Assembly: GCA_015062525.1 (NCBI GenBank)
Contig: SUUM01000003.1
Location: 88,012 to 152,011 of the forward strand
Reading direction: 5' to 3'
From: Alphaproteobacteria bacterium
Lineage (GTDB): Bacteria; Pseudomonadota; Alphaproteobacteria; Rs-D84
DNA length: 64,000 nt
The notes under the pieces are model-generated. The model had not been told where the DNA came from and made no database searches. It was given only the letters and a program-made list of their open reading frames with translations. The position numbers and the translations under genes are program-made. Positions 15,257 to 43,172 of this stretch are shown piece after piece (positions within the stretch are counted from its first letter, which is position 1; every line of letters starts with the position of its first letter).

Positions 15257-15282
15257 TCCGATTCCCCTTTTGTGGTTAAAAT

Positions 15283-15454
15283 AAAAAAAAGACCACATTT
15301 GTAAAGTGGTCGGGACGTTCAACGATTGCAAACACAAACTCCATTGCCTTTGGCATAGCCTATTGTATAACAACGGCGTCCCGACCTGTCGGTCAGGACA
15401 ATTGATAGACTGGTGTTTGCAGGGCGTTGAAACCCTTTCCGCTAACAAATGTCT
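15283..15454 (-). promoter_or_regulatory. Structured 5' leader 1 with pseudoknot and terminator/antiterminator switch
   Basis: Minus strand, in 5'-3' order: stem AGGG/CCCT (15433-15436 with 15421-15424) closes an 8-nt loop TTTCAACG, which pairs with CGTTGAA (15318-15324). The next segment GCAAACAC (15413-15420) pairs with GTGTTTGC (15328-15335). Segment 1 GTCCTGACC (15391-15399) pairs with segment 2 GGTCGGGACG (15377-15386). Segment 2 also pairs fully with segment 3 CGTCCCGACC (15308-15317). Segment 3 overlaps the 5' arm of terminator GACCAC/GTGGTC (15306-15311 with 15291-15296), followed by eight T. A -10 TATAAT is at 15462-15467. The design is shared with 19991-20132 and 38456-38690. Confidence 0.75.
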
Positions 15455-19619: not shown

Positions 19620-19722
19620 ATAAACTTTTATTTATCGCAGTAAAGATACATTAATTGCACTTTGCTCTTTTTATCTCGGCTGTGCTGTGCACAGACGGAT
19701 GCACTTACACTAACCACTACAA
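19620..19722. repeat. Dispersed ~100-bp repeat R1, copy 1
   Basis: Core: AAACTTTTATTTATCGCAGT, AAAGATACATTAATTGC, then CTCTTTTTATCTCGGCTGTG and CTGTGCACAGACGGATGCAC. Copies at 20836-20938 and 43087-43172. Each lies just before the terminator of a minus-strand gene. Contains the 10-bp palindrome CTGTGCACAG. Confidence 0.75.
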
Positions 19723-19963: not shown

Positions 19964-19990
19964 TTGATTCCTCCCTTTTATTTTATCAAA

Positions 19991-20132
19991 TAAAAAACCG
20001 CACACTTAAGGCGGTTGGAGGTTCAAAGCTATTAAGAGTAATAGTGTGCTTATTCAATATATTCACATCCCTCCAACCATGGTTGGAGTATCCCTTACGA
20101 GGCTTTGAACCCTCACACCGGTTTCCCAATGC
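19991..20132 (-). promoter_or_regulatory. Structured 5' leader 2 with pseudoknot and terminator/antiterminator switch
   Basis: Minus strand, in 5'-3' order: stem GAGG/CCTC (20111-20114 with 20099-20102) closes the 8-nt loop GTTCAAAG, fully complementary to CTTTGAAC (20021-20028). TAAGGG (20092-20097) pairs with CTCTTA (20033-20038, one G-U). Segment 1 CTCCAACC (20081-20088) pairs with segment 2 GGTTGGAG (20071-20078). Segment 2 also pairs with segment 3 CCTCCAACC (20013-20021), which overlaps the terminator arm ACCGC (20011-20015) pairing with GCGGT (19997-20001), then TTTTTT. It is the most compact of the three related leaders. Confidence 0.8.
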
Positions 20133-20858: not shown

Positions 20859-20938
20859 AGATACATTAATTGCTCTTTGCTCTTTTTATCTCGGCTGTGC
20901 TGTGCACAGACGGATGCACTTACACTAACCACTAAAAA
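20836..20938. repeat. Dispersed repeat R1, copy 2
   Basis: Shares with copy 1 the AAAGATACATTAATTGC core, CTCTTTTTATCTCGGCTGTG and the CACTTACACTAACCACTA end, with an extra GCTCTTT unit. Confidence 0.75.
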
Positions 20939-21974: not shown

Positions 21975-22853
21975 ATGAAACCTGTTTTATCAGCATTTGC
22001 AATATCAATGATGTTGGCACCGGCGTTTGCGGCGGCGCCCCATATGACACCGGCGACGGGTCGTGGACGTGCGTCTATGGCGAATCAGATGATGGCGGCA
22101 CCCCGCGTGGTCATGTCCCCAAATCAGATTCAGACGATGGCTGCACAACCCGAAATAATTGCCGTATCAGAAACCTTCGTAGAAGATAAATTGGCAATCA
22201 CCCCACCTGAAATGAAGCCGGCTGACAAAGATATGCGTGAACGCGAAAAACGCGCTTGCTTGCAGAACAATATCGGTATTGGCAATACATTTGTCTGGGC
22301 ATCCCGTTACAGTAATTTGGGCAGTTATTCGACCATGATCGAAGACATCGAAGAACCTGATAACAATACCTGTTTTGTCAAGGTTGAACTGAAATCAGAC
22401 GACCCAAAAATCAATGTCGCCGATGTTCCATCTAAATATTATGAAATGGGGCGTGACATCACGTGTGGCGAATGGGCAAACTATGACACGTTAAAGTCTC
22501 GAATCCTGGATGCAAAAAAATCCGCCCGCACATGGGCAACGGTTGGCGGTGCTGTGGGTGGCGCGGCCATTGGTGTTGGTGCAATGGAATTGTTTGGTAA
22601 CCAATTGATTGGCGGCGCGGTCGAAGGGCAACAGGGTTTAGAGGGGCTGGAACGGCTGGAATCGCAATTGGCCGTCTTAAAAAAAGATAACGAGGCTGAA
22701 TACAACCGCTTTATCAAACACCTGGGCGACTTGAAATGTGCGTGTGAATCAAGAGTCTGGCCCAGCGAAGATAAAAAACCAGACGCATGTAAAGAATATG
22801 AATATGCATTTTCTTTACCTGGCGTGAATAATAAAAACTGTCCCGACAAATAA
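21975..22853 (+). CDS. Secreted protein with glycine-zipper segment, paralogue of 37563-38441
   Basis: The 292-residue precursor has a signal peptide (MKPVLSAFAISMMLAPAFA-AAP). A Met/Ala/Pro-rich region follows, then a conserved domain from about residue 90: CLQNNIGIGNTFVWASR, NNTCFVKVELKSDDPKINV and YYEMGRDITCGEW. TWATVGGAVGGAAIGVGAME is a glycine-zipper that may insert in a membrane or oligomerise. The C-terminal part has further Cys residues. The 37563-38441 protein shares the same blocks at roughly half identity. Family unknown. A TATAAT at 21936-21941 and AGGGGAAGGGAA lie upstream. Confidence 0.75.
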   Translation: MKPVLSAFAISMMLAPAFAAAPHMTPATGRGRASMANQMMAAPRVVMSPNQIQTMAAQPEIIAVSETFVEDKLAITPPEMKPADKDMREREKRACLQNNIGIGNTFVWASRYSNLGSYSTMIEDIEEPDNNTCFVKVELKSDDPKINVADVPSKYYEMGRDITCGEWANYDTLKSRILDAKKSARTWATVGGAVGGAAIGVGAMELFGNQLIGGAVEGQQGLEGLERLESQLAVLKKDNEAEYNRFIKHLGDLKCACESRVWPSEDKKPDACKEYEYAFSLPGVNNKNCPDK

Positions 22854-25698: not shown

Positions 25699-25775
25699 GG
25701 GTGTGTAGCTCAGATGGTTAGAGCGTTACGTTGACATCGTAAAGGTCGTTGGTTCGAGTCCAATCACACCCACCA
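25699..25775 (+). tRNA. tRNA-Val(GAC)
   Basis: A 77-nt cloverleaf. Acceptor GGGTGTG/CACACCC, D-arm GCTC...GAGC, anticodon stem TTACG/CGTAA with loop TTGACAT (anticodon GAC), T-arm GTTGG-TTCGAGT-CCAAT, discriminator A and encoded CCA. It reads GUC/GUU Val codons. A terminator follows at 25783. Confidence 0.95.
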
Positions 25776-25862: not shown

Positions 25863-26032
25863 GACAATGAGTAAGTGAAAACAAGCGAAGCGCAGTTTGA
25901 ACGCTAACGAATGCCCCACAGCCGGGTGGAATCCCACCCGTGCGAGGGACAATAAGTAAGAGAAAACAAGCGAAGCGCAGTTTGAGCGCTAACGAATGCC
26001 CCACAGCCGGGTGGAATCCCACCCGTGCGAGG
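25863..26032. repeat. Tandem 85-bp duplication
   Basis: Two head-to-tail copies (25863-25947, 25948-26032) starting GACAATRAGTAAG and ending CACCCGTGCGAGG, differing at a few bases. No gene is supported here; the minus frames through it are repeats of each other. It is followed by a partial copy of the tRNA-Val 3' end. Confidence 0.85.
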
Positions 26033-34985: not shown

Positions 34986-35351
34986 TTATTTTTGTTTGTT
35001 TTGCATTTCGATTTGTATTTGCAGCATGCGACCCTTTAATTCTTTTTCATATACACGTATGTTGTTTAAAAAATTTTGTGATTCTTGCGACAGTTTTAGA
35101 ATATTCTCAAGCGTAATTTTCAACACGGGATATTTAGCCAGACCAGAATTATACAATTCCATATTGATACCGTGTCGCTTAAAAATTTCCTGACAAATTG
35201 CCGTATATTTTTCCGATTGTGCAATACAATAAATGCAATGTGTTCCATTTCGGTCGGTGACATCAGGGGTATCTTGTAATAATTTTTTTAACAACTCAAC
35301 ATCCAATTTGTCGATGCCTGCGTTATATGAATTTATTTTAAAATGTCCCAT
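34986..35351 (-). CDS. Uncharacterised 121-residue protein, third gene of secreted-protein operon
   Basis: The protein (MGHFKINSYNAGIDKLDVEL...) is hydrophilic, without signal peptide or membrane span, with Cys residues in THCIYCIAQSEKYTAICQ and a C-terminal helical, possibly coiled-coil part (LKLSQESQNFLNNIRVYEKELKGRM in part). AAAGGAG precedes the start. It lies 17 bp after the 724-residue secreted protein, so it is probably co-transcribed from the leader at 38690. No family recognised. Confidence 0.65.
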   Translation of the reverse strand: MGHFKINSYNAGIDKLDVELLKKLLQDTPDVTDRNGTHCIYCIAQSEKYTAICQEIFKRHGINMELYNSGLAKYPVLKITLENILKLSQESQNFLNNIRVYEKELKGRMLQIQIEMQNKQK

Positions 35352-35368: not shown

Positions 35369-37543
35369 TTATTGCATTCCGACCGTAAATTCATCGGCCC
35401 AGTCCGCAACGGTTTGACCGCCAACAGAACACTTGACATCGTCAAACCCTTTTTTTATTTGATTTTTTTTTACAATTTTGTTGGACAGCAATCCACCAAC
35501 AGTTCCCAATACAACGCCTGCGGTTGCATCTGATGCCAAACGCGCGGTGTTGAATTTACCATCCTGGTTTTTCCATACACTAACATCTGCGCCCGTCGCA
35601 AACGCGTTTAACACAGACATAGCGGATGTTATTTTGTCTGTTGCGATGCGTCGTTTAGCTTCTAAATCGATACGTGCATTTACACGTTCAAATTTGGGGT
35701 CAACATATTGTGCAATCAGACCTGCCACTTCTGCACGTTGACCGTCGCTAAGTTTTTTTGTGTATTCATCCAGAATCTCGTATAACTGCCGGGTTTGACC
35801 ATCGGAAAAAGTTTGTGTGTATTGTCCAATTAACTCAATAACCTGTTTGGCATTAACCTTGGTACGAACTTGTGCCGCCAGACTTGTATATTTTCCACCC
35901 AATTCTTCGATTTGACGTGCAGTTTCTTGTATCAATTGTTTTTGCGCCGCTAATTCCATGGCAAGTATACCAATACTGCCCGTTATTACCGTCAGTTTTG
36001 CGTCATATTGACTTATCATAGCCTGTACTTGACGACATTGGGTATCACTCAGTTCTGCGTCCTTTAACGCCTGATTTACAATTTCCGCCACCTGTTCTTG
36101 GGTTGTGCATTGTGCAATACGTTTTTCCAAATTGCTCAATCTGTGTCTGTTTATTTGCAATGCCTGAACCCCGCTTACAATTTCAGTTGTGAAATGTTTG
36201 GCAAAATCAGTCGCATTATTCATGGCTGTGGTGGCGACATCCCCAGCCACTTGTATGACCATGCCAACCGTGTTCGCGGCAGATGTAATCACCGTCCTGA
36301 CGTTTTCATCAAAACTGTCCAATCTGTTTCCAAAAAATTGTAATGTTGATTTGTATGCATCTGTCATATTTTGGGATATGCTTTTTATAACATCGCCCCA
36401 AATATTTAGAATCTGAACTGTACCATCCTGAGCGATTTTTAATGCACCCAGTAAAGTTTTACCTGCGCTATCAAATATTCGCACTGTGCCATCTGTCATT
36501 GTCTGCAACGTTCCGACAAATGTTTTTCCCGCCGAATCTATAATGGACACAGTCCCGTTTGCCATTATTCTGAATCGTTCGGTTATATTGTCTGAAAAGT
36601 TCACAATAATTTCTGTTCCGCCATTTATACCTGCGACAGTTACATCGCGAACGTCGCCTGATACGGCACGTATGGTTTTTCCGGCCTCTGTAAATCCTGT
36701 TTTAATAAAATCTAGTGTGGCTATATAACCCCGGGTTGTGTTGTCGGATAAGGTTTGTAATACGCGCCCGCCAATACCAAGAACCTGAACTGTTCCATCT
36801 TTGGCAATTTTAAGCGCGCCAACGAATGTTTTTCCCGCACTGTCAAATATTCGCACTGTGCCATCTGTCATTGTCTGCAACGTTCCGACAAATGTTTTTC
36901 CCGCCGAATCTACAATGGACACAGTCCCATCTTTCATTATTCTGAAACGTTCTGTTATGTTGTCTGAAAAATTCACAATAATTTCCACACCACCATTTAT
37001 GGTGCTACTGGTCGCAGACCGAAAGTTTTTTCCAGATTCAGATAAAAACGTATTGGCGGTATCCCAAAAATTTGTTTTTTGGTTCACCGTAACGTTATTT
37101 GCAGTTGTAATATTTTTACAGTACTGGTTACCCACACGATACAAATCGGCACCCCCATCAACATCTGCCGCATGTGCGCCCATCAAAATGGATTCAACAA
37201 CGCATTTTTCCTGGATGTTATGCTGTACCCAACGATAACTTGTTCGACCACTGTCGCTGGTATTTATACACTCGTACACCGCATCATTTTGGATTCCTGC
37301 ATTACCAACAGCCGCATTTCGCAGGCGCTTTTTTGTGCCGGTCGTACAAAAGCCCGCGCCACACAGGTATGCATAACCTGGCTTGCCTTCGTTGCGCAGT
37401 TCACGCTGTTGTGTATCAGCGTACAGATAATCATCATATCCCGCATCACCACCGGATTTTAGCATGTCCGTGGTCAGTTCGCACCCCGCCAATGCAGTAT
37501 TTGCAATTAATAATAACAAAACAGAACAACTAATCTTTTTCAT
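35369..37543 (-). CDS. Large secreted repeat and coiled-coil protein of unknown function
   Basis: The 724-residue precursor has a signal peptide (MKKISCSVLLLLIANTALA-GCE). A Cys-containing N-terminal domain (AYLCGAGFCTTGTKKRLR) is followed by two near-identical copies of about 77 residues, starting ING-G-EIIVNFSDNITERFRI, spaced 124 residues apart. Inside each copy the unit DGTV-I-DSAGKTFVG recurs. Residues about 450-640 look coiled-coil, and the end has a glycine-rich segment (AGVVLGTVGGLLSN). The composition suggests a surface or periplasmic fibre-like protein. Middle gene of a three-gene operon. Confidence 0.7.
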   Translation of the reverse strand: MKKISCSVLLLLIANTALAGCELTTDMLKSGGDAGYDDYLYADTQQRELRNEGKPGYAYLCGAGFCTTGTKKRLRNAAVGNAGIQNDAVYECINTSDSGRTSYRWVQHNIQEKCVVESILMGAHAADVDGGADLYRVGNQYCKNITTANNVTVNQKTNFWDTANTFLSESGKNFRSATSSTINGGVEIIVNFSDNITERFRIMKDGTVSIVDSAGKTFVGTLQTMTDGTVRIFDSAGKTFVGALKIAKDGTVQVLGIGGRVLQTLSDNTTRGYIATLDFIKTGFTEAGKTIRAVSGDVRDVTVAGINGGTEIIVNFSDNITERFRIMANGTVSIIDSAGKTFVGTLQTMTDGTVRIFDSAGKTLLGALKIAQDGTVQILNIWGDVIKSISQNMTDAYKSTLQFFGNRLDSFDENVRTVITSAANTVGMVIQVAGDVATTAMNNATDFAKHFTTEIVSGVQALQINRHRLSNLEKRIAQCTTQEQVAEIVNQALKDAELSDTQCRQVQAMISQYDAKLTVITGSIGILAMELAAQKQLIQETARQIEELGGKYTSLAAQVRTKVNAKQVIELIGQYTQTFSDGQTRQLYEILDEYTKKLSDGQRAEVAGLIAQYVDPKFERVNARIDLEAKRRIATDKITSAMSVLNAFATGADVSVWKNQDGKFNTARLASDATAGVVLGTVGGLLSNKIVKKNQIKKGFDDVKCSVGGQTVADWADEFTVGMQ

Positions 37544-37562: not shown

Positions 37563-38441
37563 CTATTTCAACATATTACGCAAACCGACAAATGGGTTTG
37601 TGTCTGGATTACAATCTTGTGGACGGTCAGAATCAGTGTTCCACAACGATTTGTCATTACACACGTTTTCCAAATCGTCCAATGCATTTATAATTCTGTT
37701 GTACTCGGATTGATTGTTTTTTTTTAATGCCAACACTTGCGAACGCAACAATTCCTGACCTTCCAAAGCCTTTTGTCCCATAACTTTACCGCCAATCAAT
37801 TTGTTGCCAAACAATTCCATGGTGCCCACCCCGACCGCTGCGCTACCAACGGCGCCACCAACAGTTGCCCATGTGCGCCCACTTTTTTTAGCGTCCAATA
37901 TGCGTTTTTCTAACATTTTTTCATCAACCCACGAGCCGCAAGTAATATTTTGTCCCATTTCAAAATATTTACTGCCTATATCAGAAACATCTATTCTGGG
38001 GTCATAACTGCTTATATCAACACGAACAAAACAGGTATTGTTTTTTTGATTTTCTAAATCTTCGGTCATATAGGTATAGTTTGAAATATTGCTGTCGCGT
38101 GCAGCCCACACAAACGTATTTCCAATGCCAATATTATTAGATAAACATACATTGCGATATTTCATTATCTGTTCCAGCTCTGGGTCGGGTGCCTCTGCGA
38201 TTGGGGTACTGGCAATTGGTTTAATTGATTCTGATGGCGTATTGATATCAATGTTTGGGTTTTGATTTTGTTGCGCTTGTGTTATTGGTGCCCCAATCAA
38301 GGTCTTTTGCGCGGTCCCACGATGTGTGTTTGTATATTCACCAGATGCATTAACGACATTTCGACCTGCGCGCCCAGTGGGTGTGCCAATCGCACTAGAT
38401 GTCAAAGATAACACAATAACAAGACCGCAAATTTGCTTCAT
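37563..38441 (-). CDS. Secreted protein with glycine-zipper segment, paralogue of 21975-22853
   Basis: The 292-residue precursor has a signal peptide (MKQICGLVIVLSLTSSAIG) and a Thr/Asn/Pro-rich linker to about residue 85. The conserved domain follows: CLSNNIGIGNTFVWAARDSN, NNTCFVRVDISSYDPRIDVS, KYFEMGQNITCGSWVD and TWATVGGAVGSAAVGVGTME. Blocks and Cys match the 21975 protein. It is the first gene of the operon behind the structured leader 38456-38690; AGAGGGAAAAAA precedes the start. Family unknown. Confidence 0.75.
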   Translation of the reverse strand: MKQICGLVIVLSLTSSAIGTPTGRAGRNVVNASGEYTNTHRGTAQKTLIGAPITQAQQNQNPNIDINTPSESIKPIASTPIAEAPDPELEQIMKYRNVCLSNNIGIGNTFVWAARDSNISNYTYMTEDLENQKNNTCFVRVDISSYDPRIDVSDIGSKYFEMGQNITCGSWVDEKMLEKRILDAKKSGRTWATVGGAVGSAAVGVGTMELFGNKLIGGKVMGQKALEGQELLRSQVLALKKNNQSEYNRIINALDDLENVCNDKSLWNTDSDRPQDCNPDTNPFVGLRNMLK

Positions 38442-38455
38442 TTTTTTCCCTCTAA

Positions 38456-38690
38456 AACAAAAACCACCATGGAATCTGGTGGTCGGGGAGTTAGCAAATC
38501 GTCTTATCGTTGATTCTGTCGCTTTCGGGTTACACCCTGTTGTATCACAGACAGCCCCCCGACTGCTTATCAGTCAGGGACAAATAACGATGCAAAAACC
38601 ACAGGAACGTTATCGGATTAACGATACATTATTTTCGCACCGGATAAGACAGGCTTGCTACAGCCCCGAACCCAATTCCCATCAGGTTCA
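38456..38690 (-). promoter_or_regulatory. Structured 5' leader 3 with pseudoknot and terminator/antiterminator switch
   Basis: Minus strand, in 5'-3' order: stem GGGC/GCCT closes an 8-nt loop TGTAGCAA (within 38651-38666), whose TAGCAA pairs with TTGCTA (38492-38497). GTCTTATC (38643-38650) pairs with GATAAGAC (38501-38508), 8 bp. Segment 1 CCCTGACTG (38571-38579) pairs with segment 2 CAGTCGGGG (38557-38565), which also pairs with segment 3 CCCCGAC (38482-38488). Segment 3 adjoins the terminator TGGTGGT/ACCACCA (38463-38469 with 38477-38483), then TTTTTG. About 60 nt longer than leader 1. A -10-like TATGAT or TAAAAT lies at 38696-38706. Confidence 0.72.
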
Positions 38691-43086: not shown

Positions 43087-43172
43087 CCACTAAACATTTA
43101 TTTATCGCAGTAAAGATACATTAATTGCTCTTTTTATCTCGGCTGTGCTGTGCACAGACGGATGCTCTTTGC
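43087..43172. repeat. Dispersed repeat R1, copy 3
   Basis: TTTATTTATCGCAGTAAAGA, TACATTAATTGCTC, then CTCGGCTGTGCTGTGCACAG; ends in GGATGCTCTTTGCTC, unlike the other copies. Confidence 0.7.

Follow-up and report, generated by a model that had tools for sequence, protein, structure and literature searches.

C4/sRNA-Xcc1-type RNA leaders that overlap a terminator are candidate transcription attenuators, mostly before genes for exported proteins, in Candidatus Enterousia

Introduction

C4-type RNAs are already known from positions ahead of antirepressor genes, whose expression phages restrain through such antisense RNAs. Their 5′ end is made by RNase P at the GGW that begins stem P1. Excerpts of PMC5320573 report this GGW start for C4 processing and describe the RNA as three stems, P1, P2 and P3, with a′ and b′ loops. 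In the annotation of phage P1 the order is a1, b1, C4 RNA, a2, b2, icd, ant, and C4 acts in trans on a2/b2, which lie at the following gene's ribosome site. Rfam groups C4 (phages P1/P7; RF01695) with c4-a1b1 (RF03163) in clan CL00128; for isrK (RF01394) and sRNA-Xcc1 (RF02221) it lists none. IsrK of the Gifsy-1 prophage is a leader that carries a terminator of its own, with read-through reaching an antirepressor gene; in the portions of PMC4825925 used here, the terminator follows a1b1 and the short RNA acts on translation in trans. Excerpts of two further papers describe sRNA-Xcc1 as a discrete ~88-nt transcript (PMC2996969) and place it before symE in integron cassettes of Xanthomonas (PMC12444791).

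Here we analyse a 235-nt leader found on the minus strand, at 38456-38690, of a 64-kb stretch of DNA (the window, by which the whole stretch is meant) from a ~0.99 Mb Candidatus Enterousia genome. Among open-licence PubMed Central papers none came to light that describes a C4/sRNA-Xcc1-type fold working as a terminator-coupled leader, or this leader set in Enterousia, and no paper in that literature mentions 'sRNA-Xcc1' together with 'antirepressor'.

Results and discussion

Architecture of the leader

The leader lies directly before a three-gene operon. Its fold has a predicted energy of -92.1 kcal/mol, against -64.9 +/- 4.4 kcal/mol for shuffled sequence (z = -6.18), and 0/200 shuffles folded as well. 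A first-pass annotation had proposed four pairings here, b/b′, c/c′, 1/2 and 2/3, together with a terminator; all five are present at this place on the minus strand. Pairings b/b′ (38660-38655 with 38497-38492) and c/c′ (38650-38643 with 38508-38501) correspond to a1/a′ and b1/b′ of C4, judging by the sequence itself and by copy-specific complementarity, which for b/b′ was seen across the family. Element 1 (38579-38571, minus strand), a putative decoy for the 5′ strand of stem P1, makes nine pairs, one of them G-U, with element 2 (38565-38557 in this pairing). Element 2 (38555..38564) is that 5′ strand and element 3 (38481..38490) the 3′ strand, both on the evidence of covariation, and together, as pairing 2/3, they make up the closing stem (38564-38555 with 38490-38481), with seven pairs that can be extended to nine. 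The last four nucleotides of element 3 (GACC) double as the foot of the intrinsic terminator (38462..38484, minus strand; arms 38484-38477 and 38469-38462, then a T-rich tail). The claim that the leader has alternative pairings, with an intrinsic terminator immediately ahead of the gene, is borne out in the sequence, the terminator having been recovered independently by a terminator scan. A mutually exclusive antiterminator and an intrinsic terminator that share bases is the arrangement expected of an attenuator.

The annotation had also noted extra sequence between element 2 and c′. It is indeed there, but it had not been recognised for what it is, namely a conserved hairpin domain, P2 (38516..38554, minus strand), identified by cmscan alignment and covariation, with a conserved internal loop, AUACAA..GAA, in common with sRNA-Xcc1. 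Hairpin P3 follows (AATC/GATT; 38497..38515, minus strand; sequence and covariation), with c′, the C4-type b′, in its loop, and a′ (38492..38497) sits in the linker ahead of the 3′ strand of stem P1. At the 5′ end of the leader, a hairpin (GAACCTGAT / ATTGGGTTC; 38668..38689, minus strand) is visible in the sequence and in the predicted fold, and is followed by GGGG (38664..38667), which in the full-length fold is predicted to pair with the CCCC of element 3. Together these two features (38689-38664), which lie 5′ of b, would lengthen the long-range helix. The a1 helix extends into element 3 in 81/85 long-core copies, yet also in 304/425 shuffles, a difference that only hints at the GGGG pairing as a feature of the family.

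Relationship to sRNA-Xcc1, C4 and IsrK

At gathering thresholds Rfam yielded only two tRNAs in the 64-kb window, and a named riboswitch or leader was rejected on this basis; T-box, c-di-GMP and other aptamers, considered by eye, had no model match. Below threshold, RF02221 was the single consistent lead and matched this copy with 29.3 bits (E 0.0029 in 351 bases; gathering score 53), the alignment to the leader core running end to end (model positions 1-87). The same model gave sub-threshold matches in 3/4 of the own-genome loci first examined and exceeded its cut-off in one genome among 59 relatives (L040). RF01695 gave no match at E<=1 for the leader, let alone one at its gathering score, nor did it match any of four loci from the leader's own genome at E<=10.

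Likeness to C4 lies in the layout. The order a1, b1, spacer, core is the same, and a closing stem P1 encloses hairpins P2 and P3, for which the leaders have covariation. In both, the P3 loop contains b′ and the linker that precedes the 3′ strand of P1 contains a′ (for C4 deduced from annotation and sequence), and a′/b′ are complementary to the upstream a1/b1. The Enterousia leader differs in that its terminator overlaps stem P1, that the internal loop of its P2 has no counterpart in the C4 consensus, and that counterparts of a2/b2 at the next gene were not detected (see below). Moreover, C4 controls an antirepressor, whereas the Enterousia copies precede exported-protein, XRE and other genes. 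The core of the window copy starts with AGT, and so with AG where the excerpts of PMC5320573 give GGW for C4 processing; many other copies start with GGT.

Resemblance to IsrK consists in the leader's own terminator and the potential for read-through, although the main Enterousia terminator follows the core and that of IsrK, according to the excerpts, follows a1b1. RF01394 matches the a1b1 region of phage P1 (35.1 bits, below the gathering score of 50). A terminator-like hairpin between a1b1 and the core was found in 21/46 short-core copies (shuffled, 8/230) and in 11/22 sRNA-Xcc1 loci (shuffled, 2/110), and is reminiscent of the IsrK terminator as presented in the portions of PMC4825925 used here. 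The C4-like Group 1 sRNAs of Acinetobacter baumannii are, as here, many C4-derived RNAs in one genome, but the excerpts of PMC5320573 describe them as processed sRNAs rather than leaders with an overlapping terminator.

sRNA-Xcc1 has the same core fold, the AUACAA..GAA loop and stem P1. It was compared at 22 loci, 8/30 at contig ends having been left out. Upstream a1/b1 complementarity ranked in the best 5% at 16/22 loci, as in Enterousia copies (the test is described below). Unlike those copies, the loci also showed downstream complementarity to a′/b′ (9/22 in the best 5%, 16/22 in the best 20%), which at L163, L164 and L175 visibly flanks the Shine-Dalgarno sequence; element 1 was found at only 2/22. 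A further difference is that sRNA-Xcc1 often precedes antirepressor-type or symE genes, though by eye not at every locus. Pfam assigned ten chosen genes to Bro-N (3), KilA-N (1), P22_AR_N (2), Rha (2) and SymE (2), and phages Aaphi23 and Rac-SA53 carry a similar element directly before ant. Across the phylum 62/398 genomes matched the model, 39 of them above the gathering score. One locus (L155, 2890-2958, minus strand) has a second, sub-threshold c4-2 RNA match near the sRNA-Xcc1 element that precedes its antirepressor gene.

We read C4, isrK, sRNA-Xcc1 and the Enterousia leaders as one superfamily. If this is right, three RNAs that Rfam keeps apart share one architecture, and a likely function can be given to sRNA-Xcc1, that of a C4-type leader for antirepressor and symE genes.

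Distribution of the leader family

The first-pass annotation had assigned the leader to a family of three. A covariance model built from 60 aligned cores (R1) extends this family greatly, matching 20 places (E<=1e-3) in the leader's own genome and 57, 61, 41 and 51 places in four relatives that were selected for having shown many copies, all such counts being in part lower bounds. The two other leaders of the annotation fit copies in the window: a second leader core before a 64-residue gene (15271..15386, minus strand; R1 73.7 bits) and a copy of short-core type (19976..20078, minus strand; R1 31.6 bits, E 2.2e-4) before a 72-residue XRE/HTH gene with Pfam HTH_3.

A blastn search with the leader found relatives in 79/96 genomes of the genus. 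At E<=0.01, R1 matched 92/96 genomes of the genus and 183/190 of the order; at E<=1e-3, it matched 29/289 genomes in the class and 13/398 in the phylum. The exact core motif occurred in eight stretches from named genomes, all gut-type metagenome records of Alphaproteobacteria and two of them Candidatus Enterousia avistercoris. Viral contigs searched with one exact pattern gave 0 matches, and a distant blastn search of phage and plasmid records with the window leader gave none.

For the tests below, one set of copies came from 94 loci with 101 matches, of which 88 were left after removal of near-duplicates and 84 had enough flank; other sets were divided by core length. The short-core set comprises all matches with a core of <=114 nt (46; flank sufficed for 45). 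L212, L246 and L248, although their sequence is of the long-core type, fall within it. From two deeply sampled relatives, sequences were taken among the matches listed: in genome G048 all 40 of those listed, out of 61, and in genome G009 all but five of those listed (51 in all).

Some copies have features of their own. In the leader's own genome two lie ~0.8 kb apart (L100 and L107, C8:153523-154443), one before a gene that looks by eye like a phospholipase-D-type gene and the other before a lipoprotein gene. The gene behind another copy (L101, C4:87138-87262) looks frameshifted, a short ATG ORF overlapping a 282-aa frame. The window also contains a 45-nt intergenic repeat (19662-19706, 20877-20921 and 43125-43169; 98-100% identity) beside other repeated sequence.

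Covariation and copy-specific pairing

Among the 60 cores, 18/24 pairs in P1, P2, the P2 tip and P3 changed on both sides in some sequence. The number of cells changed on both sides was 100 against 27 in shuffles, and 0/500 shuffles were as high. When the partner was slid by 1-3 columns, a control that preserves the relatedness of the cores, pairing fell from 90% to 33-54%. The core structure is not independent of these data, since MAFFT aligned the cores by sequence and helices were assigned to that alignment afterwards. The terminator arms of the family also covary (21 cells vs 4).

The upstream partners were assessed by the strength of the duplex that the stretch from P2 to the 3′ strand of P1 can form with its own upstream region, compared with the upstream regions of other copies. 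The own upstream region ranked in the best 5% for 61/84 copies, and for 31/35 long-core and 35/45 short-core copies; therefore, b/b′ and c/c′ are real and specific to each copy. The own downstream region ranked in the best 5% in only 7/84, 2/35 and 2/45 copies, near chance, and in the best 20% in 24/84 (~17 expected), 8/35 and 13/45, so that no target was detected at the start of the gene. Pairing of element 1 with element 2 was better than in shuffled sequence in 64/87 long-core copies, and in 36/45 and 16/35 copies of the further sets. Orthogonality of a1b1 within a genome was not detected, cross-pairing within genomes being no weaker than between genomes. Both-sided covariation in P1, P2, P3 and the terminator, together with copy-specific a1b1/a′b′, shows selection on RNA pairing.

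Terminator overlap and folding preference

A terminator-like hairpin begins at the end of stem P1 in 83/87, 34/35 and 46/46 copies, compared with 66/845 random positions in the same loci; the presence of a terminator in R1 matches is partly by construction, because R1 contains part of the hairpin. Overlap with the 3′ strand of P1 is mostly 4 nt. At sRNA-Xcc1 loci, which were found with a different model, an overlapping terminator occurs in 2/22. A promoter -10 box was not separable from shuffles (71/85 copies vs 593/850 shuffles).

Forced-pair folding was applied to copies with a clear terminator and a clear P1 diagonal. The full leader favoured the terminator in 78/78 long-core and 45/46 short-core copies by ~11 kcal/mol, a gap that is overstated because the folding excludes pseudoknots, and on which it also bears that in C4 systems a′/b′ can pair while stem P1 is closed. 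With element 1 kept and a1b1 removed, the terminator was still favoured in 66/78 and 36/46, and with the core alone in only 17/78 and 6/46. The folding thus predicts that the core by itself slightly favours stem P1 and that element 1 and a1b1 tip the balance to the terminator.

Proposed mechanism and alternatives

We consider it probable, at roughly 0.6, that the leader is a C4/sRNA-Xcc1-type RNA module turned into a cis-acting transcription attenuator before genes mostly for exported proteins. With a transcription stop signal at its heart, ahead of the genes, it probably decides whether they are read. The parts of such a switch can be recognised at the level of sequence: a covarying P1-P2-P3 core, complementarity of a1/b1 with a′/b′, element 1 as a decoy, and the overlap between terminator and P1. 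The energies suggest that the default state would be OFF. In the nascent RNA the 1/2 hairpin and the a1b1:a′b′ helix would form first, leaving element 3 free, and the terminator would halt transcription ahead of the gene. Were the upstream half cut away, bound or outcompeted, stem P1 (2/3) could close and deprive the terminator of its GACC foot, and the polymerase would read into the operon (ON). Candidate triggers are cleavage at the 5′ end of P1, which is reported for C4 RNA, competition from another RNA, and recognition of the conserved P2 loop by some factor. On this model the C4-like parts have been retained, the downstream target lost and the terminator fitted to the 3′ strand of P1, so that the C4-like fold would now work as an antiterminator. 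Action in cis is suggested by the missing downstream target together with the lack of orthogonality within genomes.

The terminated leader might instead be a trans-acting, C4-like antisense RNA, with a′/b′ binding other transcripts and the a1b1 in cis tuning its activity. Both C4, through a2/b2, and, in the excerpts of PMC4825925, short IsrK work in this manner, sRNA-Xcc1 loci often have a downstream a2/b2, and the hairpin between a1b1 and the core of 21/46 short-core copies could release a short a1b1 RNA. Nevertheless, we hold this to be unlikely, given that the near-chance downstream ranks of the Enterousia copies reveal no such target, and that selection for separate codes would have weakened the cross-pairing within genomes, which is no weaker. 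Somewhat less probable again is a metabolite riboswitch, in which the asymmetric internal loop of P2 would be the ligand pocket and binding would close P1 and give read-through. The conservation of that loop, the resemblance of the P1/terminator overlap to an expression platform and the occurrence of one core before many unrelated genes all speak for it. Yet the same loop is found in sRNA-Xcc1 before phage antirepressor genes, where an antisense role explains the layout; moreover, a riboswitch would leave the copy-specific a1/b1 without a role, and no Rfam riboswitch matched. That the copies are a spreading promoter-leader-terminator repeat devoid of regulatory role, whose terminator merely lowers expression, would fit their number and their unstable link to genes (see below), but seems very improbable to us in view of the selection on pairing that the two-sided covariation and copy-specific a1b1/a′b′ indicate, and of the fixed distance at which copies stand before start codons.

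If the attenuator reading is right, a phage lysogeny switch has given rise to attenuators across the whole of very small genomes, those of uncultured gut bacteria, and it can be predicted in concrete, testable terms how these bacteria select the exported proteins that they produce. A wider and more tentative proposal is that gut Alphaproteobacteria with reduced genomes domesticated an RNA by which phages control antirepressors, and that it multiplied to ~20-61 self-contained switches in a genome of ~1 Mb. Each switch would have an a1b1 code of its own; together they would act on much of the exported-protein set by control of termination, and they would be freely exchanged between genes. Were this true, the bacterial surface would depend largely on RNA switches and not on repressor proteins.

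Genes behind the leaders

The operon behind the window leader, on the minus strand, encodes proteins of 292 aa (37563..38441; signal-peptide-like start by the script's rule), 724 aa (35369..37543; signal-peptide-like start by eye) and 121 aa (34986..35351), none of them with a Pfam match. The 724-aa gene contains an internal direct repeat of 300 nt (36321-36620 and 36693-36992; 77% identical), a duplicated domain. Across the family, first genes are biased to exported proteins, a crude rule giving a signal-peptide-like start in 64/86, 29/44 and 29/35 vs 71/197 background ORFs, and the start codon lies 35-60 nt past stem P1 in 75/86, 42/44 and 31/35. Products include lipoproteins, autotransporter-like and outer-membrane proteins, as well as XRE proteins, glycosyltransferases and small proteins. 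The genes behind the copies are unrelated, as the first-pass annotation had held from the XRE gene, the 64-residue gene and the secreted proteins. The shared signal for which it argued is possible, but every copy carries an a1/b1 sequence of its own, as C4 antisense systems do, while orthogonality within a genome was not detected.

The link between leader and gene is not stable, since relatives have genes of this operon with no leader ahead of them. In the genus, 95/96 genomes encode homologues of the 292-aa protein, and at the 20 best loci a leader before the homologue was absent from 19 and present only at the window's own. The first-pass annotation had named such an outcome as one that would refute its reading, which is to that extent not supported as it was put. 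Three of the 19 leaderless loci (L260-L262), which lack a leader before the first gene, also carry a stretch like the 724-aa gene. The window itself holds a paralogue of the 292-aa protein (21975-22853, plus strand; 45% identical), which has no leader and whose context resembles that of homologues across the genus. Elsewhere in the window, two head-to-tail 85-nt copies (25863-26032; 96% identical) lie shortly after a tRNA gene (25699-25772).
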